47,438 bases of DNA from a virus, in the IMG/VR virus record IMGVR_UViG_3300037842_001040, positions 1 to 47,438 of that record; one strand, 5' to 3'. Below the pieces are notes generated by a model. The model was given only the letters and a program-made list of their open reading frames with translations, searched no databases and had not been told where the DNA came from. Below, one piece after another: positions 26,649 to 47,438 of the stretch. Position 1 is the first letter of the stretch. Every line of letters begins with the position of its first letter. Both the position numbers and the translations under genes were made by a program.

Positions 26649-28292
26649 ATGAGTCAATTAAATTCTCTTTTAGAAAGCGCTAATCCTTACAAGTCATTAC
26701 AAAGTGATGCTGCAAGATTAGCCAACAAATGGAACAAGACAGGCTTGTTAGAAGGTATCGGTAACGAAACTGAGAAAAACAATATGTCTATGATCCTTGA
26801 AAACCAAGCTAAGCAATTAGTTATGGAAGAAAGCAATACCGGTGGTCCACTTCCTGGAGCAGGTACATTTACTCCTGGAACAGGAGCACAATGGGCGGGT
26901 GTAGCTTTACCACTAGTAAGAAAGGTATTTGGTCAAATCGCAGCGAAAGAATTCGTTTCGGTTCAACCAATGAATCTACCTTCTGGTCTAGTATTTTATT
27001 TAGATTTCCAATACGGAACTACTAAACAACCATTCACAGCAGGTGATTCACTATATGGTGCTACTGATGGAAATACTCCATTTGGTAACGGTGCTACAGG
27101 TGGTCTTTATGGTGCTGGTAGATTTGGATATTCAATTAACAACACTCAATCTGCTGCTTATACAGTAGCTTCTAGTTCTGTTGATTGGTACACAGATTTA
27201 AATGCTGATTCTTCAGTATCTCAATCTTATGTTGCCGGTGCTACTGATCAGATTGTATGTTTAGCAATTCCAACTTCTTCATTACCTAACTTTGATGAAA
27301 GAGCCGTTAGAGGTTTCTATTTATCAGGTTCGGCAACGACAACATTTCCAGCAGTAACAACTCAATACCCACAATTTACTAAAATCAATGGTGAAAACAT
27401 TGAATTTTATGTTAGTTCATCAGTTATTGAAGCTGGTACTGGTTTAAAAGTTGAGTACTTAATGCAAACAAATGACGCTCAAAGAGGTGATTTTGAAGAA
27501 GGTAACACTAACTTAAATGGTAATAATGATCCAATCACTATTCCTGAAATCAACATTCAAATGCAGTCAGAAGCAATTGTTGCTAAGACTCGTAAATTGA
27601 AAGCTGTTTGGACTCCTGAGTTCGCTCAAGATCTTAACGCTTACCATTCTTTGGATGCTGAAGCTGAATTAACTTCAATTATGAGTGAGTATATCTCATT
27701 AGAAATTGATTTAGAAATTCTTGATATGTTGATCGAATCTGCTGCTGCTGGTACTGAGTACTGGAGTGCACAGAACAACCTATCATTAGCTTCAACAGGT
27801 GTTGTAGATGCAGATTTAGGTTTCTATAACTCACAAGGACAATGGTTCCAAACTTTAGGAACTAAAGTTCAGAAGTTAAGTAATATAATTCACCAGAAAA
27901 CTCTTAGAGGTGGAGCTAATTTCATGGTATGTTCTCCAACAGTAGCTACTATTATCGAATCTATTCCAGGATTTGCTAGTACTTCTGATGGTGATGCAGC
28001 TAAAATGAGCTACGCATTTGGTGTACAAAAAGCAGGTACTATCAATTCAAGATACACTGTTTATAAGAACCCATACATGACTGAAAATACCATTTTAATG
28101 GGATTCAGAGGTGGTCAGTTCTTAGAAGCTGGTGCTGTATTTGCTCCATACATTCCGTTAATCATGACTCCTTTAGTATACGATCCAGCAACCTTCACTC
28201 CAAGAAAAGGTTTACTTACTCGTTATGCTAAGAAAGTGGTACGCCCGGAATTTTATGGTAAAATTTATGTTGAAGGATTAAACACTCTTTAA
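26649..28292 (+). CDS. 23: Major capsid protein (gp23-like)
   Basis: 547 residues. The N-terminal about 60 residues form the removable region: ANKWNKTGLLE|G, then NQAKQLVME|ESNTGG at about residue 60, close to the T4 cleavage at 65. The HK97-fold body follows with GTGAQWAGVALPLVRKVFGQ (77-96), EFVSVQPMNLPSGLVFYLDF (about 100-119) and the E-loop/insertion region rich in Thr/Ser/Gly. Later come AKTRKLKAVWTPEFAQDLNA (about 314) and, near the end, YTVYKNPYMTENTILMGFRG and RYAKKVVRPEFYGKIYV. Complete, with a strong terminator behind it. Confidence 0.95.
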   Translation: MSQLNSLLESANPYKSLQSDAARLANKWNKTGLLEGIGNETEKNNMSMILENQAKQLVMEESNTGGPLPGAGTFTPGTGAQWAGVALPLVRKVFGQIAAKEFVSVQPMNLPSGLVFYLDFQYGTTKQPFTAGDSLYGATDGNTPFGNGATGGLYGAGRFGYSINNTQSAAYTVASSSVDWYTDLNADSSVSQSYVAGATDQIVCLAIPTSSLPNFDERAVRGFYLSGSATTTFPAVTTQYPQFTKINGENIEFYVSSSVIEAGTGLKVEYLMQTNDAQRGDFEEGNTNLNGNNDPITIPEINIQMQSEAIVAKTRKLKAVWTPEFAQDLNAYHSLDAEAELTSIMSEYISLEIDLEILDMLIESAAAGTEYWSAQNNLSLASTGVVDADLGFYNSQGQWFQTLGTKVQKLSNIIHQKTLRGGANFMVCSPTVATIIESIPGFASTSDGDAAKMSYAFGVQKAGTINSRYTVYKNPYMTENTILMGFRGGQFLEAGAVFAPYIPLIMTPLVYDPATFTPRKGLLTRYAKKVVRPEFYGKIYVEGLNTL

Positions 28293-28410: not shown

Positions 28411-29325
28411 ATGAAAGAAACACCATCACAGTTACCTATTCAAAGTTATGTAATGAATTTTCCACATACATTTTCAACCAATGATCCCAATAATGTTTGG
28501 ATGAAAGAAATGTCAGAAAAAGAATTAACCATAAACAAACCAAAAGCATATAAACAATTTATGGATCTGTATAATTTTATGGCAGGCCAATCTCTAGTCC
28601 ATTTATTACCAGCAGAAGGTAATTTCCAAGATTTGATTTATGTTGCAAATTTAGGCTTACAGTTACCCCACATTAAAGATGAAAATCATATCCTATTATC
28701 TAATTATACTTCTCCCCCAAGACAGGGTGAAGAATTTGTAGGTGAAAAATTTTTCAATCAGATGGGTTATAAAACTCATATATCCCCCCATAAATGGGAA
28801 GGAGAAGCAGATATTAAATATTTAAAGGATAATGTTTATATAGGTGGGTATGATATTAGATCAGACATAAAAACATATCATTGGATGGAGGAAAATTTTG
28901 ATATGAAAATTATTAAAGTTAAAATGGTAGACGAATATATGTACCACCTAGATTGTAGTATATTCCCGTTAAATACACATTCAACTATGGTTTGCACTGA
29001 ACTATATGATAAAGAAGAATTAGCACAAATAAGCAAATATACAAATATAATAGATATAGATGCTGAAGATTCAACTTATGGAATGGCTAATTCTGTTAGA
29101 TTGGGAAATATGATTTTATGTGCTTCCAATATTTCCGAAATGAAAAAAGGAGATGAATTTTATGAAGGAGAAAAGCATAAAATTGAATCATTAGAAAAAA
29201 TATGTTCTAATGAAGGAATGGAACCTGTAATATTTAATCTATCAGAATATATGAAATCAGGAGCTATGTTAAGTTGCATGGTAATGCACTTAAATAGAGT
29301 TGATCATTTTAAATCCCTCCTATAA
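28411..29325 (+). CDS. Guanidino-group modifying enzyme (DDAH/amidinotransferase/arginine deiminase superfamily)
   Basis: 304 residues, normal length for dimethylarginine dimethylaminohydrolase-type enzymes. Superfamily features: LLPAEGNFQDLIYVANLGL (65-83, the substrate Asp loop), a WEGEADI motif (E132, D134), HLDCSIFPL with catalytic-type H179 and D181, and near the end MKSGAMLSCMVMHLNR with C289 where the nucleophilic Cys lies. These are alignments by eye. The family hydrolyses or transfers the amidino group of arginine derivatives; the exact substrate is unknown. It is the first gene after the capsid terminator and overlaps the next gene by one base, so it is expressed with the PSD-like enzyme. 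I infer an auxiliary metabolic gene. Confidence 0.78.
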   Translation: MKETPSQLPIQSYVMNFPHTFSTNDPNNVWMKEMSEKELTINKPKAYKQFMDLYNFMAGQSLVHLLPAEGNFQDLIYVANLGLQLPHIKDENHILLSNYTSPPRQGEEFVGEKFFNQMGYKTHISPHKWEGEADIKYLKDNVYIGGYDIRSDIKTYHWMEENFDMKIIKVKMVDEYMYHLDCSIFPLNTHSTMVCTELYDKEELAQISKYTNIIDIDAEDSTYGMANSVRLGNMILCASNISEMKKGDEFYEGEKHKIESLEKICSNEGMEPVIFNLSEYMKSGAMLSCMVMHLNRVDHFKSLL

Positions 29326-30089
29326 TGGCTGAAAAATTAGAAGATTGGTTAAATGGAGAAGTAGCAGAATTATCTAAAATGTCTGTTGGAGAATTAAGTA
29401 ATAATTTCTTCTTTAGAGACCCAATTAGGCCTACATTTATAGATTATGAACATTTTTATAGCCCTTCAGATGGAACTATATTATATCAAAAAATAGTCCA
29501 ACCCGGGGAGCAAGTTTTAGAAATTAAAGGTATCGATTATACTATCCAAGATGTAATGGGTGATAGTGAATTTAATAAACCCTCTTTAGTTATTGGAATA
29601 TTTATGTCATTTTATGATGTTCATATTAATAGAATTCCATATGGGGGTATATTAAAATATAAAAGATTAGAACCTATTGAATCAACAAATAAACCCATGT
29701 TAGCGGTAGAGAAGGATATACTGAATAAAGTAATCAACCCAAATAACATGGCGTACTTAAAGTACAATGAAAGAATGTCTAACCAAGTGTATGTTCCTTC
29801 TTTAGATTACACATACCACTTAATACAAATTGCCGATGAGGACGTAAATGTAATAGCCCCTTTTAAACAACAAGGGGATCTTTGTGCCCAAAACGAAAGA
29901 TTCAGTTTAATTAGATGGGGCTCTCAAGTAGATTTAGTTCTACCTTTAGATTCTAGATATGAGTTTGAGACCATGTTAGATGACACAATGCATGTTAATG
30001 CAGGTCTTGACAAATTAATTAAAATAAACCACACTCAAAAATGCCTTCAAAACCCCATACAGACGAAGTTCACAGAAAACAAAGAATAG
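29325..30089 (+). CDS. Phosphatidylserine decarboxylase-like protein
   Basis: 254 residues. The order of motifs is that of the PSD family: FFFRDPIRPTFI (28-39; family F-F-R-x-P), FYSPSDGTI (D49; family SPADG), VIGIFMSFYDVHINRIPYGG (H100), and NERFSLIRWGSQVDLVLP (190-207; family G-E-R-F-x-x-I-x-F-G-S-x-V-D-x-x-x-P) with S200 at the self-cleavage site that makes the pyruvoyl group. The Asp/His/Ser set for processing and decarboxylation is present. PSD makes phosphatidylethanolamine at the membrane. No N-terminal membrane anchor is visible, as in the short soluble-type family members. Substrate could be another serine lipid or molecule. It overlaps DDAH-like and phoH genes. Confidence 0.8.
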   Translation: MAEKLEDWLNGEVAELSKMSVGELSNNFFFRDPIRPTFIDYEHFYSPSDGTILYQKIVQPGEQVLEIKGIDYTIQDVMGDSEFNKPSLVIGIFMSFYDVHINRIPYGGILKYKRLEPIESTNKPMLAVEKDILNKVINPNNMAYLKYNERMSNQVYVPSLDYTYHLIQIADEDVNVIAPFKQQGDLCAQNERFSLIRWGSQVDLVLPLDSRYEFETMLDDTMHVNAGLDKLIKINHTQKCLQNPIQTKFTENKE

Positions 30090-32170: not shown

Positions 32171-33331
32171 ATGGCAAATATACCAATATGGCCCGGATCA
32201 AGTTCATTCCAACCAGGAGATACACCTTTTGGGTTTTATGACAATGATCCTGAATTTCAAATAGATGCAGATAAGTTTGCAACTTTTGCGGCCCGAAGAT
32301 TAGGATATCCTATTGTGGATGTTGAACTTCAAGATTTAAATTTTTATGCTGCTTTTGAAGAAGCAGTAACAATATATGCTAATGAATTATATGGATTTAA
32401 AATTAGAGATAATTATCTAACATTAGAAGGAGCAGATGCTGCTACTATGGATATTGAAGATACAATTATTGTTCCTAATTTAGGAAGAATAATTCAAATG
32501 TCAGAACAATATGGGGTTGAAGCTGGTACAGGCGGAAATGTAGACTGGCACACAGGTGAAATTAACTTAACTAAAAGCGTTCAAGATTATAATCTAGAAG
32601 AATGGGCTCAAGCTAACATACCTCACTATAAAAACCATGATATAGAAATCATGAGAGTTTTTTATGAAGCACCTCCTGCATCCATGAGAGCTTTTGATCC
32701 TTATCAAGGTGGGGGTGGTATGACAGAAATGATGGATACCTTTGGATGGGGTCAATTTTCTCCTGCAGGTGTTAATTATATGTTAATGCCTATAAATTTT
32801 GATATGCAAATTATCCAACAAATAGAATTTAATGATATGATTAGAAGAGCTAATTACTCTTTTGAGATACATAATAATAATTTAAGATTATTCCCAATTC
32901 CTGATGGAACCCCGGATAAAATGTATTTTGAATATATTCTAAATTCAGAACGTTCAAGTGCTTCATTTGTAGTAGGAGGAAGTAGTACTATTTCTAATAT
33001 TTATGATGTCCCTTATACTAATCCAAATTATGATGATATTAATTCAGTTGGTAGAAGTTGGATATTTGAGTATGCCTTAGCGGTATGTAAAGAAATGTTA
33101 GGATATGTTAGAGGTAAATATCAAGTAGTACCAATCCCAGGAGATAATGTTACATTAAACGCAAATGATTTAATTACAGCAGCTACCGGGGAAAAAGAAA
33201 GACTAATTGATAGATTAAGAGCTTATTTAGGAGAAACATCAAGAGAAAAATTATTAGAAAGAAGAGCAGCCGAAAGTGATTTTATTGAAAAAGAACTTGG
33301 CAAGGTTCCTTTTCCAATTTATATAGGATAA
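32171..33331 (+). CDS. 13: Neck protein (gp13-like)
   Basis: 386 residues. Position and pattern fit T4 gp13: an N-terminal helical region FATFAARRLGYPIVDVELQD then FYAAFEEAVTIYANELY (about 35-77), a beta region with many aromatic residues, the long MPINFDMQIIQQIEFNDMIR stretch (about 215), and a final helical segment IFEYALAVCKEMLGYVRGKY followed by GEKERLIDRLRAYLGETSRE. It is immediately followed (1 base) by the gp14-like gene. The pair closes the filled head and receives the tail. Identity rests on synteny and pattern, so moderately sure. Confidence 0.8.
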   Translation: MANIPIWPGSSSFQPGDTPFGFYDNDPEFQIDADKFATFAARRLGYPIVDVELQDLNFYAAFEEAVTIYANELYGFKIRDNYLTLEGADAATMDIEDTIIVPNLGRIIQMSEQYGVEAGTGGNVDWHTGEINLTKSVQDYNLEEWAQANIPHYKNHDIEIMRVFYEAPPASMRAFDPYQGGGGMTEMMDTFGWGQFSPAGVNYMLMPINFDMQIIQQIEFNDMIRRANYSFEIHNNNLRLFPIPDGTPDKMYFEYILNSERSSASFVVGGSSTISNIYDVPYTNPNYDDINSVGRSWIFEYALAVCKEMLGYVRGKYQVVPIPGDNVTLNANDLITAATGEKERLIDRLRAYLGETSREKLLERRAAESDFIEKELGKVPFPIYIG

Positions 33332-34915: not shown

Positions 34916-37444
34916 ATGGGTATAATATTAAGACAGAACAAAGGTTCCGAGTTAACGTTTGCAGAAGTAGATGGCAATTTTCAGTCACTCTACTACTCTA
35001 GTTCTCTGTCTGGTACTGATCTACAGTTTTTCTTTGCAAGTAGTAGTGTAACACATAGTATAGACTTAACAAATGTTCCTGGATTCACAGGAGTTACAAT
35101 TGAAAGTGGAAGTACTTTAATAGATAATGGTGTTCAAACTTTAAATTTCTTAGGAAGTGGTATAGCTAGTATTACAAATGCTGGGGGTAATCAAGTTGAT
35201 ATTACTATTGAAGGTGGTGGTGGTAGTGGAACAGGAATATTTCAATTATTAGGAGCTTCAGATATATATTATGCAACTTCTTCATTACAAGTAACAGCTA
35301 GTACTTATCAAGAGTCTGATTATACTACTATAGGCGTTACACAAAACCCAAATAATGATGGTACAGGGGGTAGCGTAGCAAAATATGGAATGATGTTTAG
35401 CCAATCTATATGGCATTATACGGATAATGTAGGTTACCCAACATCAAAAGCATGGCAGACAGATTTAGAAGGATCGGTATTTAATAATTATGATCAAAAC
35501 ACAGACACAGCTGAAATTTTAAGATTTATAGCAACACAATTAAGTGCATCATCACCAGATACTTCACCTAATGCTCGTTATTATTCTGGTACTTCTGAAA
35601 CAATTGCTTCAACAGGAACAGGTGGAGTTACGGGTTATGTACCCAATTCTACAACCGACCCTATTTTATTATATTTGCAAGGAAAAGGATGGGCTATAGC
35701 AGGACAAAGTGTATTTCAAGGAATTACTCCAATTTATAATAATTCAAGCTATAATATAAAATATACATCAGTTGCAGCTGGTTCGACCACATGCCCCTCA
35801 TCATCTTATGATCCTTCTTTCCAATTATTCAATTTAGGATTAGTAAGTTCTTCATTCACAACATCAGGTTCTTTAAGAAGAATTTTTGCTGATAACTCTG
35901 CAAAAACCCAAACAGTAGTAGATGAACAACAATATACTTTAGTAAAAACCCCACCACCTTTTAATACAACATCAGGTCAAACTATTGGGGCAATACCTAC
36001 AGTAGGAGGATTAGATATAAAATATCAAGATGGTAAATTTGCTACGATTTTTCAAAATAATTTATATAATGGGGGTATTTCCTTCACAACAAAAGAAGCT
36101 ACAGGTTGGTATAGATTATCTTCATCAATAGGAGTACAATCAGGTTCTTCTAATTATACTACTTTTTATGATCAAGATACTGAAATATTTTGGTCGGATG
36201 TACAAACTAGTGATTTTTCTCAAACAGTAGGTTTTAATACTAGACAAAGTTCATCTTTATCAGCAACCTCAAGATCACTTTCAGGAGCTCCTTTATTATT
36301 AACATCAAATTTTAAAGAAGGATCTCATCTTACAGGATATTTCAATCCTTTATTTTCAGCACAACCTACATTTGCTTCAATCACAGAAACAGATTCTTTA
36401 GTAACCCCCTCTAACCCAACAGGTGGAACTAGAAATGGAAGTACAAATGGGGGTACTGTTCAAACTTCTAATTTTATATATTCTAGTGGGGGTGTTGTTA
36501 GAACTGTAGGAACTGTACCAAGTCAAGGAGATGTTGTTTATCTATCGGCAAGTTTAGCATTTAATGCAGGGTCAGGAGGGGCTGATAACATCAACCAAAC
36601 TGGGCTAGGCACAACAACCTTTATTACAACAACAAAAGGAAGAGAATTTGGTGGGTCGTTAAATACTGTATTTACTAATACTTATGCTTATTTTGACCCA
36701 GGTACATATGGACAAAATGTACTATCAGGTTCTATGGGTTACTACGGTAGAGCTCAAGGATATGATGGGGGTACATTAACAGGAGCTTCAAGTAATACAG
36801 TATTCACAGAACAATTTTCAGGGGAAGATTATAGAATAATAATTGATGATGATTTACTAACAGGATCATATGCTAGTGGGACAAAATTTGCAACGGGTGT
36901 GTATGCAGAGTATGTTCAAGATGACTTAGAATTACAAGTAAAACCGGGATATTTAGTAACCCCTGGAGGAACATATGGTTATTGGACGCCTGCAAATGCT
37001 GGTGCAAATACTTATCAATATTATTCAAGAGCATTTCAAAGAGATTTAACAACAGGAGCAAGTGATGTAACAGCTAGTTTTGGTGCAGCTTTAAATACGT
37101 GGGATAGTACAGCTAATGGGATTTCAGTTGCATTTTTATTTTCGGGCTCAGGAGCTCAAGCATATTCTAACCCAAGAATTTTTGATCCAGCAACAACCGT
37201 TGGGGATGCTTTACAAATAGGCATAACTAATAATAATTCTACTAACCCATTTAGTGACCCTATTGATTTATATGCTTGCAAAACAGGTACAGTAAGAGGA
37301 AGTGGAGCTAGTACAAGTTATGAATTTCCTCTTTTAAATGGAAATGGTATGACTTTAGATCAATTTACACAAGATTTTATAGTTATAATAAGGTATAAAG
37401 GTGATCCAACTCCTATTGATGATATAGACATAACGATTACGTAA
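34916..37444 (+). CDS. Fibre-type structural protein
   Basis: 842 residues, rich in Ser, Thr, Gly, Asn and Tyr. The N-terminus MGIILRQNKGSELTFAEVDG NFQSL carries the (K/R)-G-x-x-L-T-x-A-E-V-D-x-N-F motif widespread at the starts of marine phage tail fibre or tail-associated proteins, probably an attachment segment. Residues 35-115 are a small beta domain ending in a Gly linker (EGGGGSGTG). The rest is beta-rich, with many S/T/G turns and few charged residues. Receptor binding is likely but not demonstrable. It precedes the giant repeat gene by 17 bases and may build the same fibre. Confidence 0.75.
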   Translation: MGIILRQNKGSELTFAEVDGNFQSLYYSSSLSGTDLQFFFASSSVTHSIDLTNVPGFTGVTIESGSTLIDNGVQTLNFLGSGIASITNAGGNQVDITIEGGGGSGTGIFQLLGASDIYYATSSLQVTASTYQESDYTTIGVTQNPNNDGTGGSVAKYGMMFSQSIWHYTDNVGYPTSKAWQTDLEGSVFNNYDQNTDTAEILRFIATQLSASSPDTSPNARYYSGTSETIASTGTGGVTGYVPNSTTDPILLYLQGKGWAIAGQSVFQGITPIYNNSSYNIKYTSVAAGSTTCPSSSYDPSFQLFNLGLVSSSFTTSGSLRRIFADNSAKTQTVVDEQQYTLVKTPPPFNTTSGQTIGAIPTVGGLDIKYQDGKFATIFQNNLYNGGISFTTKEATGWYRLSSSIGVQSGSSNYTTFYDQDTEIFWSDVQTSDFSQTVGFNTRQSSSLSATSRSLSGAPLLLTSNFKEGSHLTGYFNPLFSAQPTFASITETDSLVTPSNPTGGTRNGSTNGGTVQTSNFIYSSGGVVRTVGTVPSQGDVVYLSASLAFNAGSGGADNINQTGLGTTTFITTTKGREFGGSLNTVFTNTYAYFDPGTYGQNVLSGSMGYYGRAQGYDGGTLTGASSNTVFTEQFSGEDYRIIIDDDLLTGSYASGTKFATGVYAEYVQDDLELQVKPGYLVTPGGTYGYWTPANAGANTYQYYSRAFQRDLTTGASDVTASFGAALNTWDSTANGISVAFLFSGSGAQAYSNPRIFDPATTVGDALQIGITNNNSTNPFSDPIDLYACKTGTVRGSGASTSYEFPLLNGNGMTLDQFTQDFIVIIRYKGDPTPIDDIDITIT

Positions 37445-37461
37445 AAGAATAAAGATATAGA

Positions 37462-40400
37462 ATGGCATTAGATAAAACAAAAAAGTCGAATAGGTTACTC
37501 CAAAGTAAGAGATATACAATGGAGCAGAGTACTGATGCTCAAGAGGCATTCACAAGGACTCTCGATATTAATGCTGGTGATATTTATATTAGAGAAGATT
37601 ATGTCCCATCAGCATCAGGAAGTATACCATATTCTGGTAGTGCTCAAAATCAATTAACATTACAATCTGCAAGTGTTGATATTGTAAAATATCATTACCA
37701 ACATCAATTAACACCATCCTCAGTTGTTAATGGTAGTAAAACTGAAGTATTTTTCTTTATATCAAAATCAGCACATGATCCTACAATAGCTGTTACACCA
37801 CAAATTATACAAGAAGGCCAACAAACAAGTTTTATATCACCAAAATATTCTGATGCAGATTTAACATTTAAAAATACTGAAGATAATGTACCCGCAGGTG
37901 ATGGTACAGTTGGTTATAATGTTACTGTTAGAGTAAATGGTACAGAACAAGATGCAGCTTATTATCAATTTGATTATAAAACAGGTGTTATACAATTCGT
38001 AGATAGTTCAGTATCCCCAACTACTGGAGATACTGTTGTTATGTCAGCTTACCAATATGTAGGTCCTACTTTAGCAGATGGTTCACCTGGAGGAGGTGGG
38101 GGTGGTTTTCCATTCTCAGGTTCAGCACAAATAACAGGATCAGTTGGGGGAGTTCCCGGAGGATTTGCAGTAACTGGTAGTAGTACATTTGATGTAAGCG
38201 GAACAGGAGATGAATTTAAAATAGAATCAGCCCCTATTCAGGATTTTCCATTTTTACTAACATATGCAACAGGTTCAGGTAAAATAGGATATATTGAAAT
38301 ATCTAGTGGTACTAGTGGACTTTCAGGAACATCAGGAACAGCCGGTACTTCAGGGGATGGAGGAGGAGCAGGTGGAAGCGGAACAAGTGGAACATCAGGT
38401 ACAGCTGGTACTTCAGGTGAAAGCGGAACAAATGGTACATCAGGAGCAAGTGCCACTTCAGGTACAGCAGGAACTTCAGGTGCTAGTAACTCATCAGGTA
38501 CAGCTGGTACCTCTGGTGCAAGTAACTCATCAGGTACAGCTGGTACTTCAGGTGAAAGCGGAACAAATGGTACATCAGGAGCAAGTGCCACTTCAGGTAC
38601 AGCAGGAACTTCAGGTGAAAGCGCTACTTCAGGAACAGCAGGTACATCAGGAGCAAGTGCCTCAAATGGTACTGCAGGAACTTCAGGTGCAAGTGCCACA
38701 AACGGAACTGCAGGTACTTCTGGTCAAAGTTCCACTACAGGTACTTCAGGTACTTCAGGTGAAAGTGGAACATCAGGTACTTCAGGTGTAAGTGCCACTT
38801 CAGGTACAGCTGGTACTTCAGGTGAAAGTGCTTCATCAGGTACAGCAGGAACCTCAGGTGAAAGCGCTACTTCAGGTACTTCAGGAGAAAGCGCAACTTC
38901 AGGAACTGCCGGTACTTCAGGTGTAAGTGCCACTTCAGGTACAGCAGGTACTTCGGGTGAAAGCGGAACAAATGGAACTTCAGGCGAAAGCGCAACAAGT
39001 GGAACAGCTGGTACCTCGGGTGCAAGTAACTCATCAGGTACAGCAGGAACTTCAGGTGCAAGTGCCACAAACGGAACTGCAGGTACTTCAGGTGAAAGCT
39101 CTACAACAGGAACAGCAGGTACTTCGGGTGCAAGTGCTTCATCAGGCACAGCAGGTACTTCGGGTGCAAGTTCAACAAATGGAACTTCAGGTACTTCAGG
39201 AGTAAGTGCTACAACAGGTACAGCAGGTACTTCGGGTGAAAGCGGAACAAAGGGAACATCAGGAGTAAGTGCTACTTCAGGAACAGCAGGAACTTCAGGT
39301 GAAAGCGGAACAAACGGAACTTCTGGAGAAAGTGCCACTTCAGGTACAGCAGGTACTTCAGGTGCTAGTAACTCAACAGGAACAGCAGGTACATCAGGAG
39401 CAAGTTCCACAAGTGGAACTGCAGGTACTTCGGGAGCAAGTGCTTCAACAGGTACTGCAGGAACTTCAGGTGAAAGCGGAACAAATGGTACATCAGGAGC
39501 AAGTGCTTCATCAGGTACAGCAGGTACTTCAGGTGAAAGTGCTTCATCAGGAACAGCTGGAACTTCAGGAGCCAGTTCTTCAAATGGAACCGCAGGCACA
39601 TCAGGTGTAAGTGCCACTTCAGGTACAGCTGGTACCTCTGGTGAAAGTGCTTCATCAGGAACAGCTGGAACTTCAGGAGCCAGTTCTTCAAATGGAACCG
39701 CAGGCACATCAGGTGAAAGTGCTACTTCAGGAACAGCAGGTACAGCAGGTACAGCAGGTACATCAGGAGCAAGTGCCTCATCAGGTACTGCAGGAACTTC
39801 AGGTGAAAGTGCTACAAACGGAACAGCAGGTACTTCAGGTGAAAGTGCTTCATCAGGTACAGCAGGAACCTCAGGTGAAAGTGGAACAAACGGTACTTCA
39901 GGTGAAAGTGCAACTTCAGGTACAGCTGGTACTTCAGGTGAAAGTGCTTCATCAGGTACAGCAGGAACCTCAGGTGCAAGTAACTCATCAGGTACTGCAG
40001 GAACTTCAGGTGCAAGTGGAACTACAGGAACAGCAGGAACCTCAGGTGCAAGTGGAACTACAGGCACTTCAGGTGAAAGTGCAACTTCAGGTACTGCAGG
40101 TACATCAGGAGCAAGTGCCTCAAATGGTACTGCAGGTACTTCTGGTCAAAGTTCCACTACAGGTACAGCAGGTACTTCAGGTGAAAGTACTTCAACAGGT
40201 ACAGCAGGAACCTCGGGTGCAAGTAACTCAACAGGTACAGCAGGTACTTCAGGTGAAAGTGCAACTTCAGGTACAGCAGGTACTTCAGGTGAAGCCGGTG
40301 AAAGTGGAATAAGTGCAACATCAGGTACAGCAGGAACCTCGGGTGAAGATGGTACTTCAGGAGTAAGTGCAACCTCAGGTACAGCAGGTACATCAGGAGC

Positions 40401-43400
40401 AAGTGCCACAAATGGAACTGCAGGTACATCTGGAGCAAGTAACTCGACAGGTACAGCAGGTACATCTGGAGCAAGTGCCACAAACGGAACTGCAGGTACT
40501 TCAGGCGAAAGCGCTACTTCAGGAACAGCAGGTACGTCAGGTGAAAGCGGAACAAACGGTACTTCAGGGGCAAGTGCTACTTCAGGAACAGCCGGTACTT
40601 CAGGAGCAAGTGCTTCAAATGGAACAAATGGAACTTCTGGAGCAAGTGCCACTTCAGGAACAGCAGGTACTTCAGGAGAAAGCGGAACAAATGGAACTTC
40701 AGGTGAAAGTGCAACAAGTGGAACAGCCGGTACTTCGGGAGCAAGTGCTTCAACAGGTACTGCAGGTACTTCTGGAGCAAGTGTCACTTCAGGAACTGCA
40801 GGTACTTCAGGCGAAAGCGCAACAAGTGGAACAGCCGGTACGTCCGGTGAAAGTGGAACAGCCGGTACATCAGGTGAAAGTGCAACAAGTGGAACAGCCG
40901 GTACTTCAGGAGCAAGTGCTTCAAATGGAACAGCAGGTACCTCAGGTGCAAGTGCTACTACAGGTACTGCAGGTACATCAGGAGAAAGTGCAACTACGGG
41001 TACAGCAGGTACTTCAGGAGCAAGTGCCTCAACAGGTACAGCTGGTACTTCAGGTGAAAGCGCTACTTCAGGAACAGCCGGCACTTCAGGTGAAGCAGGT
41101 GAAAGTGGAATAAGTGCTACTTCAGGTACTGCAGGAACTTCAGGTGAAGATGGTACTTCAGGAGTAAGTGCTACTTCAGGAACGGCAGGTACTTCAGGAG
41201 CAAGTAAATCTTCAGGAACAGCAGGAACCTCAGGTGCAAGTGCTTCAACAGGTACAGCAGGTACTTCAGGCGAAAGCACCACAACAGGTACTGCAGGAAC
41301 TTCAGGAGCAAGTGCTTCAACAGGTACGGCAGGTACTTCAGGTGAAAGCGGAACAAATGGAACTTCAGGCGTAAGTGCTACATCAGGTACTGCTGGTACC
41401 TCGGGTGCAAGTAACTCATCAGGAACAGCTGGTACATCAGGAGCAAGTGCCTCAAATGGAACTTCAGGTACTTCAGGAGCAAGTGCCTCAACAGGTACAG
41501 CAGGAACTTCAGGCGAAAGCGCAACTTCAGGTACTGCAGGAACTTCAGGAGAAAGTGGAACAAATGGAACATCAGGTGTAAGTGCCACTTCAGGTACAGC
41601 AGGAACTTCAGGTGCTAGTAAATCATCAGGAACAGCTGGTACTTCAGGAGCAAGTGCCTCAACAGGAACAGCTGGTACATCAGGTGAAAGTGCTACTTCA
41701 GGAACAGCCGGTACTTCAGGTGAAGCAGGGGAAAGCGGAATAAGTGCAACTTCAGGTACAGCAGGAACCTCGGGTGAAGATGGAACTTCAGGTGTAAGTG
41801 CAACTTCAGGTACAGCAGGCACATCAGGAGAAAGTGCCACATCAGGTACAGCAGGAACTTCAGGAGCAAGTAACTCAAATGGAACAGCAGGCACATCAGG
41901 TGAAAGTGCAACAAGTGGTACAGCAGGAACCTCAGGAGCAAGTGCCACATCCGGTACTGCAGGTACTTCTGGTGCAAGTTCAACAAATGGAACATCAGGT
42001 GAAAGCGCAACAAGTGGTACAGCAGGTACTTCAGGTGAAAGTGCAACAAGTGGTACAGCTGGTACTTCGGGTGCAAGTGCCTCAAATGGAACAGCTGGAA
42101 CTTCAGGTGAAAGTACTACTTCAGGAACAGCTGGTACTTCAGGAGCAAGCAATTCATCAGGTACTGCAGGAACTTCAGGTGAAAGCGGAACAAATGGAAC
42201 ATCAGGAGCAAGTGCCACATCAGGCACTGCAGGAACTTCAGGAGCAAGTAAATCTTCAGGAACAGCAGGAACCTCAGGTGCAAGTGCTTCAACAGGTACA
42301 GCAGGTACTTCTGGTGAAAGTGCTACAAGTGGCACAGCAGGTACTTCTGGGGAAGCTGGAGAAAGTGGAATAAGCGCTACATCAGGAACAGCAGGAACTT
42401 CAGGTGAAGATGGAACTTCAGGAGTAAGTGCAACTTCAGGTACTGCAGGAACTTCAGGAGCAAGTGCTTCAAATGGTACAGCAGGTACTTCAGGTGAAAG
42501 CGCAACTACGGGTACAGCTGGTACTTCGGGTGCAAGTGCCTCAAATGGAACAGCTGGAACTTCAGGAGCAAGTGCTACTTCAGGAACTGCAGGAACTTCA
42601 GGTGAAAGTGCAACCACAGGTACTGCAGGTACTTCAGGAAAATCAGGAAAATCAGGTTCAAACGGTACAGCAGGTACTTCAGGCGAAAGCGCAACAAGTG
42701 GAACATCAGGCACATCAGGTGCAAGTGCTTCAACAGGGACAGCAGGTACTTCTGGTGCAAGTTCAACAAATGGTACATCAGGAGCAAGTGCCACTTCAGG
42801 TACAGCCGGTACATCAGGTGCAAGTAAATCTTCAGGAACAGCAGGAACCTCAGGTGCAAGTGCCACAAACGGAACTGCAGGTACTTCAGGTGAAAGTGCT
42901 ACATCAGGAACAGCTGGTACCTCAGGAGCAAGTGCTTCAACAGGTACTGCAGGAACTTCAGGTGAAAGCGGAACAAATGGTACATCAGGAGCAAGTGCTA
43001 CATCAGGAACAGCTGGTACCTCAGGAGCAAGTGCTTCAACAGGTACTGCAGGTACTTCTGGTGAAAGTGCTTCAAATGGAACAAAAGGAACTTCAGGTCA
43101 AAGTGCAACTTCAGGAACAGCAGGTACGTCAGGTGAAGCCGGAGAAAGCGGAATAAGCGCTACTTCAGGTACAGCTGGTACTTCTGGTGAAGATGGAACT
43201 TCAGGTGTAAGTGCAACTTCAGGTACAGCAGGCACATCAGGAGCAAGTGGAACAAATGGAACTTCAGGAGCAAGTGCTACAAGTGGTACTGCAGGAACTT
43301 CAGGAGCAAGCAATTCATCAGGTACTGCAGGAACTTCAGGTGAAAGTGGAACAAATGGAACTGCGGGTACATCAGGTGCAAGTAAATCTTCAGGTACAGC

Positions 43401-46400
43401 AGGCACATCAGGAGCAAGTGCTTCAAATGGTACAGCAGGCACATCAGGTGCAAGTGCAACCACAGGTACTGCAGGTACTTCAGGACAATCAGGAAAATCA
43501 GGTTCAAATGGAACTGCAGGTACATCAGGAGTAAGTGCTACTTCAGGTACTGCAGGAACATCGGGATCTAGTTCAAAATCAGGTTCAAATGGAACTTCAG
43601 GAGCAAGTGCAACAAGTGGAACTGCAGGAACATCAGGACAATCAGGTTCAAATGGAACTTCAGGATCAAGTGCTACAAGCGGTACAGCAGGTACATCAGG
43701 AGCAAGTGCTTCAACAGGTACTGCAGGAACTTCAGGTGCAAGTGCAACAAATGGAACAAAAGGAACTTCAGGTCAAAGTGCAACTTCAGGTACAGCAGGA
43801 ACTTCCGGATCTAGTTCAAAATCAGGTTCAAACGGAACCTCAGGTGCAAGTGCAACTTCAGGTACGGCAGGTACCTCAGGAAAATCAGGTTCAAATGGAA
43901 CTTCAGGTGCAAGTGCATCAAGTGGAACAGCAGGTACCTCAGGAGCAAGTGCTTCATCAGGTACAGCAGGTACCTCAGGAGCAAGTGCTTCAAATGGAAC
44001 AAAAGGAACTTCAGGTGAAAGTGCAACCACAGGTACTTCAGGTACTTCAGGAAAATCAGGTTCGAATGGAACTTCAGGTGAAAGTGCTACTTCAGGAACA
44101 GCTGGTACTTCAGGAGCAAGTAATTCATCAGGTACTGCAGGAACTTCAGGAGCAAGTAAATCTTCAGGTACTGCAGGAACTTCAGGAGCAAGTGCTACAA
44201 ATGGAACTGCAGGTACTTCTGGGGAAGCTGGAGAAAGTGGAATAAGTGCTACTTCAGGAACAGCAGGTACATCAGGTGAAGATGGTACTTCAGGTGTAAG
44301 TGCAACATCGGGTACAGCAGGTACATCAGGTGCAAGTAAATCTTCAGGAACTGCGGGTACATCAGGAGCAAGTGCTTCAAATGGTACAGCAGGTACCTCA
44401 GGTGAAAGTGCCACTTCAGGTACAGCAGGAACATCAGGATCCAGTAAAAAATCAGGTTCAAACGGAACTTCAGGTGCAAGTGCAACTTCAGGTACTGCAG
44501 GTACTTCGGGTGCAAGTAAATCTTCAGGTACTGCAGGAACTTCAGGAGCAAGTGCTACAAATGGAACATCAGGAACTTCAGGAAAATCAGGTTCAAACGG
44601 AACCTCAGGTGCAAGTGCTACATCGGGTACAGCAGGTACTTCAGGATCCAGTAAAAAATCAGGTTCAAACGGAACCTCAGGTGCAAGTGCCACATCTGGT
44701 ACTGCAGGAACATCAGGAACTTCAGGAAAATCAGGTTCAAACGGTACAGCAGGTACATCAGGTGAAAGCGCAACCACAGGTACAGCAGGTACTTCAGGAG
44801 AATCAGGAAAATCAGGTTCAAATGGAACTTCAGGAGCAAGTGCAACTTCAGGTACTGCCGGTACCTCAGGAGCAAGTGCTTCAAATGGAACAGCAGGTAC
44901 ATCAGGTGCAAGTGCTTCAAATGGAACAGCCGGTACATCAGGTGCAAGTGCAACAAGCGGTACAGCAGGAACCTCGGGTGAAGCAGGAGAAAGCGGAATA
45001 AGTGCTACTTCAGGTACTGCAGGAACCTCAGGTGAAGATGGAACTTCAGGAGTAAGTGCAACCTCAGGTACAGCAGGTACATCAGGTGCAAGTGCTTCAT
45101 CAGGTACAGCTGGAACTTCAGGAGCAAGTGCTTCAAATGGAACAGCAGGTACCTCAGGTGAAAGTGCAACTACAGGTACAGCGGGTACATCAGGAGCAAG
45201 TGCTTCAAATGGAACAGCAGGTACATCAGGTGCAAGTGCCACTTCAGGAACAGCTGGTACTTCAGGAGAATCAGGAAAATCAGGTTCAAACGGTACTGCA
45301 GGAACTTCTGGAGCAAGTGCAACTACAGGTACAGCAGGTACTTCAGGACAATCAGGAAAATCAGGTTCAAACGGAACAGCAGGTACCTCAGGTGAAAGTG
45401 CCACTTCAGGTACAGCAGGAACATCAGGATCCAGTAAAAAATCAGGTTCAAACGGAACTTCAGGAGCAAGTGCAACAAGTGGAACTGCGGGTACATCAGG
45501 TGCAAGTAAATCTTCAGGTACAGCAGGCACATCAGGAGCAAGTGCTTCAAATGGTACAGCAGGCACATCAGGTGCAAGTGCAACTACAGGTACAGCAGGT
45601 ACTTCAGGACAATCAGGAAAATCAGGTTCAAACGGAACAGCAGGTACTTCAGGTGAAAGCGCAACTTCAGGTACGGCCGGTACTTCAGGATCTAGTAAAA
45701 AATCAGGTTCAAACGGAACTTCAGGAGCAAGTGCAACAAGTGGAACTGCAGGAACATCAGGACAATCAGGTTCAAATGGTACATCAGGAGCAAGTGCCAC
45801 ATCTGGTACTGCAGGAACTTCAGGTGCAAGTAAATCTTCAGGAACAGCGGGTACTTCAGGTGCAAGTGCCACAAACGGAACTGCAGGAACTTCAGGTGAA
45901 AGTGCAACCACAGGTACTTCAGGTACTTCAGGACAATCAGGAAAATCAGGTTCAAATGGTACAGCAGGTACTTCAGGTGCAAGTGCTACAAGCGGTACAG
46001 CCGGTACATCAGGTGTAAGTAAATCTTCAGGAACAGCTGGTACTTCGGGTGCAAGTGCCACAAATGGAACTGCAGGAGCAAGTGCTACAAGCGGAACAGC
46101 AGGTACTTCAGGTGCAAGTGCTTCATCAGGTACAGCAGGTACCTCAGGAGCAAGTGCTTCAAATGGAACAAAAGGAACTTCAGGTGTAAGTGCAACTTCA
46201 GGTACAGCAGGTACTTCAGGAGAAAGCAAAAAATCAGGTTCAAACGGAACTTCAGGTGCAAGTGCTACTTCAGGAACAGCAGGTACTTCAGGTGCAAGTG
46301 CTTCATCAGGTACAGCAGGTACCTCAGGAGCAAGTGCTTCAAATGGAACAAAAGGAACTTCAGGTCAAAGTGCAACTTCAGGTACAGCAGGAACTTCAGG

Positions 46401-47438
46401 ATCCAGCAAAAAATCAGGTTCAAACGGAACTTCAGGAGCAAGTGCCACGTCGGGTACTGCAGGTACTTCGGGTGCTAGTAACTCTTCAGGTACAGCAGGT
46501 ACTTCAGGAGCAAGTGCCACAAATGGAACAGCCGGTACATCAGGTGCAAGTGCTACAAGCGGTACAGCTGGTACTTCAGGACAATCAGGAAAATCAGGTT
46601 CAAATGGTACAGCAGGTACTTCAGGAAGAAGTAACTCATCAGGAACAGCAGGTACTTCAGGTGCAAGTGCTTCTACAGGTACAGCAGGTATATCAGGCGA
46701 AAGTGCCTCATCAGGTACAGCCGGTACATCAGGAGCAAGTGCAACTACAGGTACAGCAGGTACATCAGGTGCAAGTAACTCAACAGGTACTGCAGGAACT
46801 TCAGGAGCAAGTGCCACTTCAGGTACAGCAGGTTCAAGTGGTACTTCAGGATCGTCAGGTATAGATGGTGGAGCTGGAGAAAGTGGAGAAAGTGCAACTT
46901 CAGGAACAGCAGGAACCTCAGGTGCAAGTGCTTCTACAGGTACAGCAGGTACATCAGGTGCAAGTAACTCAACAGGTACTGCAGGAACCTCAGGTCAAAG
47001 TGCAACTTCAGGATCTTCAGGAACAAATGGTTCTTCAGGAAACAATGGTGCTTCAGGTTTAAGCAGAACTTCAGGTTCATCTGGTTCAACAGGGTCAAGT
47101 GGTAACAACGGAGCTTCAGGTTTAAGTAGAACCTCAGGTTCATCTGGTTCAACTGGATCAAGTGGTAACAACGGAGCCTCAGGTTTAAGTAGAACATCAG
47201 GTTCTTCAGGTTCAACAGGCTCATCAGGTAACAACGGAGCCTCAGGTTTAAGTAGAACTTCAGGTTCTTCAGGTTCAACAGGATCAAGTGGTAACAACGG
47301 AGCCTCAGGCATAAGTAGAACATCAGGTTCAAGTGGTTCATCGGGTTCATCAGGAAATAACGGTGTAGCAGGAGCAAGTAAATTAAGCGCAACTTCAGGA
47401 TCTTCAGGAACAAATGGTTCTTCAGGAAACAATGGTGC
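37462..47438 (+). CDS. Giant collagen-like repeat fibre protein (3' partial, more than 3,300 codons)
   Basis: ATG at 37462 opens a frame that stays open to the last base; each codon phase checked along the region agrees and no stop was seen. Residues 1-280 are a non-repetitive beta-rich domain (DINAGDIYIREDYVPSASGS near residue 35; GTVGYNVTVRVNG; FDYKTGVIQFVDSSVSPTTG) ending in a Gly-rich linker (DGSPGGGGGGFPFSG). From about 281 onward nearly everything is G-x-y triplets, chiefly GTA-GTS-GAS-ATS with GES, GTN, GVS, GKS and GQS variants. The register is collagen-like, with Thr, Ser and Ala instead of Pro. It probably forms a very long, Thr/Ser-rich side or tail fibre shaft attached through the N-terminal domain. 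The C-terminal tip is outside the window. Confidence 0.88.
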   Translation, partial: MALDKTKKSNRLLQSKRYTMEQSTDAQEAFTRTLDINAGDIYIREDYVPSASGSIPYSGSAQNQLTLQSASVDIVKYHYQHQLTPSSVVNGSKTEVFFFISKSAHDPTIAVTPQIIQEGQQTSFISPKYSDADLTFKNTEDNVPAGDGTVGYNVTVRVNGTEQDAAYYQFDYKTGVIQFVDSSVSPTTGDTVVMSAYQYVGPTLADGSPGGGGGGFPFSGSAQITGSVGGVPGGFAVTGSSTFDVSGTGDEFKIESAPIQDFPFLLTYATGSGKIGYIEISSGTSGLSGTSGTAGTSGDGGGAGGSGTSGTSGTAGTSGESGTNGTSGASATSGTAGTSGASNSSGTAGTSGASNSSGTAGTSGESGTNGTSGASATSGTAGTSGESATSGTAGTSGASASNGTAGTSGASATNGTAGTSGQSSTTGTSGTSGESGTSGTSGVSATSGTAGTSGESASSGTAGTSGESATSGTSGESATSGTAGTSGVSATSGTAGTSGESGTNGTSGESATSGTAGTSGASNSSGTAGTSGASATNGTAGTSGESSTTGTAGTSGASASSGTAGTSGASSTNGTSGTSGVSATTGTAGTSGESGTKGTSGVSATSGTAGTSGESGTNGTSGESATSGTAGTSGASNSTGTAGTSGASSTSGTAGTSGASASTGTAGTSGESGTNGTSGASASSGTAGTSGESASSGTAGTSGASSSNGTAGTSGVSATSGTAGTSGESASSGTAGTSGASSSNGTAGTSGESATSGTAGTAGTAGTSGASASSGTAGTSGESATNGTAGTSGESASSGTAGTSGESGTNGTSGESATSGTAGTSGESASSGTAGTSGASNSSGTAGTSGASGTTGTAGTSGASGTTGTSGESATSGTAGTSGASASNGTAGTSGQSSTTGTAGTSGESTSTGTAGTSGASNSTGTAGTSGESATSGTAGTSGEAGESGISATSGTAGTSGEDGTSGVSATSGTAGTSGASATNGTAGTSGASNSTGTAGTSGASATNGTAGTSGESATSGTAGTSGESGTNGTSGASATSGTAGTSGASASNGTNGTSGASATSGTAGTSGESGTNGTSGESATSGTAGTSGASASTGTAGTSGASVTSGTAGTSGESATSGTAGTSGESGTAGTSGESATSGTAGTSGASASNGTAGTSGASATTGTAGTSGESATTGTAGTSGASASTGTAGTSGESATSGTAGTSGEAGESGISATSGTAGTSGEDGTSGVSATSGTAGTSGASKSSGTAGTSGASASTGTAGTSGESTTTGTAGTSGASASTGTAGTSGESGTNGTSGVSATSGTAGTSGASNSSGTAGTSGASASNGTSGTSGASASTGTAGTSGESATSGTAGTSGESGTNGTSGVSATSGTAGTSGASKSSGTAGTSGASASTGTAGTSGESATSGTAGTSGEAGESGISATSGTAGTSGEDGTSGVSATSGTAGTSGESATSGTAGTSGASNSNGTAGTSGESATSGTAGTSGASATSGTAGTSGASSTNGTSGESATSGTAGTSGESATSGTAGTSGASASNGTAGTSGESTTSGTAGTSGASNSSGTAGTSGESGTNGTSGASATSGTAGTSGASKSSGTAGTSGASASTGTAGTSGESATSGTAGTSGEAGESGISATSGTAGTSGEDGTSGVSATSGTAGTSGASASNGTAGTSGESATTGTAGTSGASASNGTAGTSGASATSGTAGTSGESATTGTAGTSGKSGKSGSNGTAGTSGESATSGTSGTSGASASTGTAGTSGASSTNGTSGASATSGTAGTSGASKSSGTAGTSGASATNGTAGTSGESATSGTAGTSGASASTGTAGTSGESGTNGTSGASATSGTAGTSGASASTGTAGTSGESASNGTKGTSGQSATSGTAGTSGEAGESGISATSGTAGTSGEDGTSGVSATSGTAGTSGASGTNGTSGASATSGTAGTSGASNSSGTAGTSGESGTNGTAGTSGASKSSGTAGTSGASASNGTAGTSGASATTGTAGTSGQSGKSGSNGTAGTSGVSATSGTAGTSGSSSKSGSNGTSGASATSGTAGTSGQSGSNGTSGSSATSGTAGTSGASASTGTAGTSGASATNGTKGTSGQSATSGTAGTSGSSSKSGSNGTSGASATSGTAGTSGKSGSNGTSGASASSGTAGTSGASASSGTAGTSGASASNGTKGTSGESATTGTSGTSGKSGSNGTSGESATSGTAGTSGASNSSGTAGTSGASKSSGTAGTSGASATNGTAGTSGEAGESGISATSGTAGTSGEDGTSGVSATSGTAGTSGASKSSGTAGTSGASASNGTAGTSGESATSGTAGTSGSSKKSGSNGTSGASATSGTAGTSGASKSSGTAGTSGASATNGTSGTSGKSGSNGTSGASATSGTAGTSGSSKKSGSNGTSGASATSGTAGTSGTSGKSGSNGTAGTSGESATTGTAGTSGESGKSGSNGTSGASATSGTAGTSGASASNGTAGTSGASASNGTAGTSGASATSGTAGTSGEAGESGISATSGTAGTSGEDGTSGVSATSGTAGTSGASASSGTAGTSGASASNGTAGTSGESATTGTAGTSGASASNGTAGTSGASATSGTAGTSGESGKSGSNGTAGTSGASATTGTAGTSGQSGKSGSNGTAGTSGESATSGTAGTSGSSKKSGSNGTSGASATSGTAGTSGASKSSGTAGTSGASASNGTAGTSGASATTGTAGTSGQSGKSGSNGTAGTSGESATSGTAGTSGSSKKSGSNGTSGASATSGTAGTSGQSGSNGTSGASATSGTAGTSGASKSSGTAGTSGASATNGTAGTSGESATTGTSGTSGQSGKSGSNGTAGTSGASATSGTAGTSGVSKSSGTAGTSGASATNGTAGASATSGTAGTSGASASSGTAGTSGASASNGTKGTSGVSATSGTAGTSGESKKSGSNGTSGASATSGTAGTSGASASSGTAGTSGASASNGTKGTSGQSATSGTAGTSGSSKKSGSNGTSGASATSGTAGTSGASNSSGTAGTSGASATNGTAGTSGASATSGTAGTSGQSGKSGSNGTAGTSGRSNSSGTAGTSGASASTGTAGISGESASSGTAGTSGASATTGTAGTSGASNSTGTAGTSGASATSGTAGSSGTSGSSGIDGGAGESGESATSGTAGTSGASASTGTAGTSGASNSTGTAGTSGQSATSGSSGTNGSSGNNGASGLSRTSGSSGSTGSSGNNGASGLSRTSGSSGSTGSSGNNGASGLSRTSGSSGSTGSSGNNGASGLSRTSGSSGSTGSSGNNGASGISRTSGSSGSSGSSGNNGVAGASKLSATSGSSGTNGSSGNNG
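47002..47051 (+). repeat. 50-base direct repeat, copy 1 (copy 2 at 47389-47438)
   Basis: The 50 bases starting GCAACTTCAGGATCTTCAGG are identical to the last 50 bases of the window, 387 bases downstream. The second copy is cut by the window end, so the identity may extend further. Confidence 0.85.
47041..47355 (+). repeat. Five tandem 63-base units (21-residue repeat)
   Basis: Units start at 47041, 47104, 47167, 47230 and 47293. They encode NNGASGLSRTSGSSGSTGSSG with minor changes (SGI in the last). The repeat contains Arg at the place of Gly in one triplet (RTS) and differs from the upstream 12-residue unit, marking a new shaft segment. Confidence 0.88.

Follow-up and report, generated by a model that had tools for sequence, protein, structure and literature searches.

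A predicted giant proline-free, collagen-like fibre in a T4-like marine phage and a candidate glycosylation cassette linked to it in related phages

Introduction

Collagen-like phage fibres, glycosylated mycobacteriophage virions and bacterial TibC enzymes are each already known, separately. EPclA, a fibre encoded by an E. coli O157 prophage, has been proven to be trimeric and triple-helical with a Tm of 42 °C, and the recombinant protein of 47 kDa has been shown to be unglycosylated (PMC3368898). Freeman et al. (2023, as cited in PMC12619734) have reported that mycobacteriophage virions are glycosylated, with sugars on the capsid and on the C-termini of the tail tube. The known substrates of the bacterial enzymes TibC and AAH are cell-surface autotransporters of E. 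coli (PMC4358343). Among animal collagens, Mann (1996, as cited in PMC11766948) has tied the stability of the cuticle collagen of the vent worm Riftia to glycosylated threonine and not to hydroxyproline. Here an open reading frame (ORF) for a long Gly-X-Y fibre is described from a viral sequence, together with the genes found next to its relatives. The window, that is the whole stretch of DNA analysed, corresponds to a single linear record of IMG/VR, 47,438 bases long (IMGVR_UViG_3300037842_001040).

Genomic setting and extent of the open reading frame

Judged by its genes, the carrier is a predicted marine T4-like myophage related to Flavobacterium phages. The genes upstream of the fibre encode terminase, portal, protease, a gp23-type capsid protein, PhoH and head-tail adaptors, and the capsid protein is also related (35%) to that of Rhodothermus phage RM378. 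The fibre gene lies downstream of the head-tail adaptors, and in relatives the tail sheath and tube come after it. The features that matter for the following are:

26649..28292, + strand: major capsid protein of T4 gp23 type, closest among isolates to that of Flavobacterium phage immuto (59%)
32171..33331, + strand: head-tail adaptor (Ad2-like) gene, which places the fibre in the neck/tail structural operon
34916..37444, + strand: 842-aa gene directly upstream of the fibre, whose N-terminus, 'GSELTFAEVDGNFQSL', is of fibre/baseplate type and which is syntenic in relatives
37462..47436, + strand: giant fibre ORF, 3,325 codons up to the contig end, which truncates it
37462..38073, + strand: conserved N-terminal anchor domain (residues 1-204), common to 30 proteins with differing bodies
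38074..38301, + strand: linker (residues 205-280) with fibre-like GSAQITGS motifs, kept only in the nearest relatives
38308..47436, + strand: proline-free shaft (residues 283-3325) of 1,014 triplets, 79% Gly-led, X mostly Thr and Y mostly Ser
47041..47340, + strand: near-identical 63-bp tandem units near the contig end

No Gly-X-Y gene was present in the 41-kb region of immuto searched, and neither a cellular copy nor a host clue was found in the genome contigs searched. At 29325-30089, within the head gene cluster, the window also encodes a phosphatidylserine decarboxylase domain (PF02666, E 2.5e-22).

The preliminary description of this DNA had the frame open from 37462 to the window edge over more than 3,300 codons, and this holds: from the ATG at 37462 to the last full codon at 47436, the assembled sequence gives 3,325 codons with no stop, within the repeat or before it. 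An open run of that length is expected by chance at about 10^-69 if equal codon use is assumed. Residues 1-280 are non-repetitive and conserved. Because the contig end cuts the ORF, the chain is at least 3,325 aa long; the 63-bp tandem units are the likely cause of the assembly break.

Composition and periodicity of the shaft

From residue 283 on, 805 of 1,014 triplets (79%) are led by Gly, which keeps a single register (806 residues in that phase, against 3 and 1 in the remaining two). Within the Gly-led runs Thr occupies X in 59% and Ser occupies Y in 66%, and the frame contains 66 matches to Pfam Collagen (PF01391), several of them above the 27.2-bit cut-off. About 3,040 residues had been described beforehand as G-x-y triplets almost without Pro. 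The single register over 1,014 triplets stands, but 21% of the triplets are without Gly, and the remark on Pro was an understatement, residues 283-3325 having no Pro codon whatever. Collagens have an uninterrupted Gly at every third residue and are enriched in Pro or hydroxyproline, and the window shaft, 79% Gly-led and free of Pro, departs from them on both counts. In two relatives, L330 and L196, Gly leads 98-100% of the triplets.

The non-Gly triplets are ATS, ASN, ASS, KSS, NSS and similar, and their first residue is most often Ala (155), then Lys, Asn, Ser, Arg, Thr and Val. The spacing from one non-Gly triplet to the next is exactly four triplets in 150 of 208 cases, so that the dominant unit is a 12-mer, GTA-GTS-G(E/A)S-ATS. 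Over the whole shaft (38308-47436) these triplets are always in phase; they fall mostly at every fourth triplet here and at every eighth in L189, L192 and L009, and they may act as hinges or turns, or as motifs for glycosylation. When the 12-mers were compared, codon positions 1 and 2 of the fixed residues were invariant and position 3 was free (mean entropy 1.06 bits). The serine of GTS and that of GxS are each invariant at positions 1 and 2, and these position-specific Ser codons are a trace of repeat duplication.

Across the repeat GC content increases, from about 31% to 48-50%. The GC3 of the repeat (9%) is no higher than that of the other genes (11-21%), so the rise is due to the Gly, Ala and Thr codons and not to foreign DNA; a foreign origin inferred from the GC jump was ruled out, as GC3 matches the genome. 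The repeat is also overlain by antisense ORFs, the longest of 906 codons, and these were likewise rejected, as a by-product of codon composition. With codon positions 1 and 2 fixed, position 3 free and GC3 like that of the genome, the simplest reading of the repeat is that of a protein held in frame by selection and resident in the genome.

Relatives of the fibre, its anchor and its tips

Residues 1-280 have relatives in viral contigs at 48-88% identity. No relative of the fibre N-terminus was found among isolated phages (50,697 records), and searches of the anchor against PHROGs and Pfam assigned no family. The anchor is common to 30 loci with interchangeable bodies of several kinds, which is the modular pattern of phage fibres; in L198-L207, for instance, a window-type anchor carries short bodies without Gly-X-Y. 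Complete fibres with a window-type N-terminus measure 2,467 aa (L014), 2,542 aa (L011, L012) and 3,473 aa (L017), and the nearest complete homologue, of 3,007 aa, occurs in three separately assembled records (L189, L190, L191) that differ by at most one base. The longest fibre came to light through the terminase. Locus L330, 3420-18353 (23419-38352 of contig G055), encodes a complete Gly-X-Y fibre of 4,977 aa, longer than that of the window, with 1,569 triplets, 98% of them with Gly, and a shaft without Pro. Its phage has a terminase 90% identical to that of the window and the same flanking gene order, with a different fibre N-terminus.

Contig G010, which carries the glycosylation genes described below, is especially close to the window. 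Four of six flanking genes are 94-97% identical and two are 85-89% identical, the N-terminal part of the fibre is 82% identical, and the G010 shaft is broken mostly every eight triplets, against four in the window. The shaft thus appears, by sequence comparison, to be the fast-evolving part. On the strength of the four neck/operon genes at 94-97% identity, the window was assigned to the cassette-bearing group.

The C-terminal domains are known from relatives, as the window ends before the fibre C-terminus. An S74 intramolecular chaperone domain caps nine Gly-X-Y fibres (E 2.5e-16 to 7e-20). Other Gly-X-Y fibres end in a C-terminal tip, a beta domain well modelled by AlphaFold2 (blocks of pLDDT 73-91). 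Fold searches, made with this tip model only, gave phage capsid structures of the cement/decoration type as the nearest solved folds (E 0.003-0.1, weak but consistent) and, as the nearest viral models, proteins of fibre-like type, several of which bear the name 'Collagen triple helix repeat'. S74-capped fibres and cement proteins function as trimers, and such ends therefore favour three chains in the shaft, by analogy. For the anchor with the first repeats, AlphaFold2 returned a mean pLDDT of 37 and no confident fold. Overall, complete relatives with known fibre ends, and a fibre of 4,977 aa in a near phage, uphold the earlier view that the gene encodes a giant collagen-like phage fibre.

Glycosylation genes downstream of related fibres

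In the complete loci examined, on five related contigs (G001, G002, G003, G004, G010), glycosylation genes come after the fibre and are themselves followed by tail sheath and tube. This cassette contains GT1 glycosyltransferases, SAM methyltransferases in most loci (one of the FkbM type) and a GT9 protein. The GT9 protein matches the NCBIfam model TIGR04414, 'autotransporter strand-loop-strand O-heptosyltransferase', at 297-323 bits (336 in G010) against a cut-off of 200, and reaches at most 42 bits with models of LPS heptosyltransferases. Its best solved relative is TibC (4rap, E 9e-64). The L020 enzyme has residues identical to D110, K230, R286, W305 and the iron-finger cysteines C339/342/358/370 of TibC, with T226 replaced by Ser, and L021 has Ile at the TibC Arg position; the roles of these residues have been described (PMC4358343). 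By HMM and active-site residues, the cassette GT9 protein is a predicted TibC-type protein O-heptosyltransferase. PHROGs held no family for the G010 enzyme, and TIGR04414 has no match in the 47-kb window record, which ends inside the fibre. Given the group to which the window was assigned, its phage would carry the cassette as well.

For the supply of a heptose donor, gmhA (ADP-heptose synthesis) was absent in 18 contigs. A PfkB kinase nearest to the HldE/RfaE kinase domain, far under the cut-off, occurs in 6 of the 18. PfkB-type kinases lie at 11537-12280 of L105 (101 bits against a cut-off of 345), where the gene adjoins the TibC-type gene, and at 4520-5266 of L208. That these kinases provide the heptose donor is suggestive only.

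Related genes are seen in other records. In Microcystis phage Mel-JY01 (PP395634.1; L023, 1-3052) a sense-strand Gly-Ser/Thr repeat ORF is cut by the start of the record; the annotation calls two antisense ORFs (1-651 and 739-2298) as genes over it, and a nearby gene named 'FkbM methyltransferase' holds a TibC-type domain. A 735-kb phage (LR756501; L024, 13221-21161) has a Ser/Thr Gly-X-Y ORF on the opposite strand, a GT1-like gene and a TibC-type enzyme close together. The 104-kb contig G045 (record of L260, IMGVR_UViG_3300027736_000029) has two TIGR04414 genes over the cut-off and a partial third match.

Linkage of the enzyme to Gly-X-Y fibres

Among 80 enzyme loci, a proline-poor Gly-X-Y ORF was present in 34 of the 42 with at least 5 kb of upstream sequence and in 1 of the 38 with less than 5 kb, the low count in the latter being due to contig breaks within the repeat. 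In 33 of the 34 this ORF was upstream on the same strand, with a gap of 3.1-7.7 kb; in L081 it lay downstream on the opposite strand. When the enzymes were clustered at 80% identity, 23 of 29 clusters had a Gly-X-Y ORF. In the same phage group, 80 loci centred on the terminase yielded none, and at 12 kb or more the count was 0/21, against 27/42 for the enzyme loci (p = 3e-7), a control that tests position within the genome because the fibre is about 20 kb from the terminase. Where the same anchor, a Gly-X-Y fibre and sequence beyond were all present, the enzyme followed in 7/7 contigs, and where the same anchor carried a non-Gly-X-Y body it was found in 0/10, including contigs of 155 kb and 105 kb, several rows being near-duplicates that reduce the comparison to roughly 4 against 4 by lineage. 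Contigs of at least 60 kb picked only by the DNA pattern (Gly-[Ser/Thr]-[Ser/Thr])4 had an enzyme over the cut-off in 11 of 19 cases and none in eight; among 50,697 phage records the enzyme model matched at all in four. In a set of 12 terminase-picked contigs the enzyme occurred in three, and all three belonged to the five contigs that match collagen. Of the two left over, one was the 4,977-aa fibre, on a contig that ends shortly after the stop, and one a Gln-rich repeat.

These counts suggest the shaft as substrate of the cassette enzyme. The preliminary description had proposed possible glycosylation from the Thr/Ser composition, and the predicted protein O-heptosyltransferase cassette linked to the fibre in relatives gives this independent support. 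Fairly unlikely is an alternative in which the repeat is an unglycosylated, mostly disordered or loosely trimeric low-complexity linker, the cassette acts on another virion protein, on host LPS or on DNA, and the linkage reflects operon conservation only. Tail genes do adjoin the cassette in the same operon, and AlphaFold predicts no structure for the repeat. In addition, L101-L105, L093 and L025 (a 636-kb record) have the enzyme without a strong Gly-X-Y neighbour, and from L101-L105 and L093 the enzyme substrate could be a neighbouring protein. Operon conservation sits poorly, however, with the absence of the enzyme next to the same anchor when the body is not Gly-X-Y, and with its recovery in contigs picked by the repeat alone. 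As for host LPS, TIGR04414 is a family of protein O-heptosyltransferases, and the LPS enzymes are distinct and score far lower.

Proposed structure and modification of the fibre

Taken together, the product is probably a trimeric, collagen-like tail or neck fibre, O-glycosylated on Ser/Thr by the phage's own enzymes. It would consist of the conserved N-terminal anchor, a long proline-free Gly-X-Y shaft with regular breaks and a C-terminal trimeric tip or S74 chaperone that sets the register. Three chains would assemble from the C-terminal trimer, and the shaft would wind as a collagen-type helix with regular weak points. The Ser/Thr residues of the shaft would be O-glycosylated in the host cytoplasm, probably before assembly, as TibC does with its autotransporter, by the TibC-type enzyme, GT1 and methyltransferases of the phage, with heptose or other sugars. 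On the outward side chains of X and Y these sugars could stabilise and hydrate the helix, in the role that proline and hydroxyproline would otherwise have. The outcome would be a long, hydrophilic and flexible fibre, able to touch receptors on the host surface at a great distance from the virion. The gene has neck genes on one side and sheath genes on the other, and the fibre may belong to the tail, to a neck whisker or to the head.

Counting against a canonical triple helix are the 21% of triplets without Gly, at which it would kink. They lend themselves to a quite unlikely alternative, in which the chain folds back as a polyglycine-II bundle as in gp38 of phage S16, with the Gly runs as short helices and the non-Gly triplets as turns, and the fibre stays far below 800 nm. 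S16 gp38 has ten Gly-rich motifs parted by short segments in a single chain (PMC6851490). A folded-back structure had also been named in the preliminary description. This alternative was kept because the Gly runs of the window are short and uniform, three triplets long in 150 of about 210, each broken by one non-Gly triplet. Turns, however, need not hold phase, and the triplet register does not slip over 1,014 triplets. Relatives of the same architecture have runs of 7 or 14 triplets, or no break over 105 triplets, one complete fibre has 98% Gly, and the S74 and cement-type ends point to trimers. Finally, expansion or chimerisation of a short repeat by the assembler is highly improbable, even with a contig end in near-identical 63-bp units and many related contigs likewise breaking in the repeat: exact repeats in the region reach 101-120 nt at most, with none of 121 nt or more, the 3,325 codons run without stop or frameshift and with free synonymous variation, the 3,007-aa homologue differs by at most one base across three separately assembled records, and the complete 4,977-aa homologue was assembled elsewhere.

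For the trimeric collagen-like fibre, a full triple helix would measure about 870 nm over the window shaft and about 1.3-1.35 micrometres over the 4,977-aa fibre, both being upper bounds. A length above 800 nm, as proposed beforehand for an extended shaft, needs an uninterrupted triple helix, which the window sequence does not strictly allow.

A wider reading is possible and at present doubtful: that a family of ocean phages makes collagen fibres that lack proline, with chains of up to about 5,000 residues, and that in them phage-encoded TibC-type O-heptosylation of Ser/Thr takes over from proline and hydroxyproline in stabilising the triple helix, a solution convergent with that of the vent-worm cuticle collagen. 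To our knowledge, such a fibre would be the first heptosylated collagen. If true, phages make and glycosylate giant collagen-like fibres with their own enzymes, a natural system exists for how a triple helix holds without proline, and the protein O-heptosyltransferase family of bacterial autotransporters extends to viral structural proteins. Fibres of such length would also change estimates of the reach of marine phages to their hosts. Linkage across many phage lineages, including the cultured-host phage Mel-JY01 and the 735-kb phage, makes the question directly testable.

Comparison with known systems

As far as searched, the combination of collagen-like fibre, virion glycosylation and TibC-type enzyme, together with the absence of proline and the size, is undescribed; a search of the literature, which fell short of most subscription journals, found nothing that links TibC-type enzymes to phages or to Gly-X-Y fibres. 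The cassette enzyme of the relatives belongs to the same family as TibC and AAH (BAHT family, TIGR04414) by the curated cut-off and by its active-site and iron-finger residues. Known TibC substrates are beta-helical autotransporters and not collagen-like chains, whereas in the relatives the gene is part of a phage structural operon and neighbours a Gly-X-Y fibre. The Riftia collagen is an animal protein, unrelated, and the phage shaft differs in having mostly Ser at Y and mostly Thr at X. For the mycobacteriophages, as cited in PMC12619734, no collagen-like fibre and no TibC-type enzyme is mentioned. S16 gp38 resembles the window fibre in its Gly-rich motifs, which in that phage fibre lie in PPII-like helices (PMC6851490), but it is a small single-chain tip domain with poly-Gly motifs, and the window encodes a giant Ser/Thr triplet shaft. 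EPclA and EPclB are alike in being phage fibres with an N-terminal anchor and a collagen-like Gly-X-Y part, and they have a C-terminal trimerisation domain of the kind of part seen here in relatives. EPclA is, however, far smaller than the window fibre, which has at least 3,325 aa and a shaft without proline, and whose relatives carry linked candidate protein glycosyltransferases.
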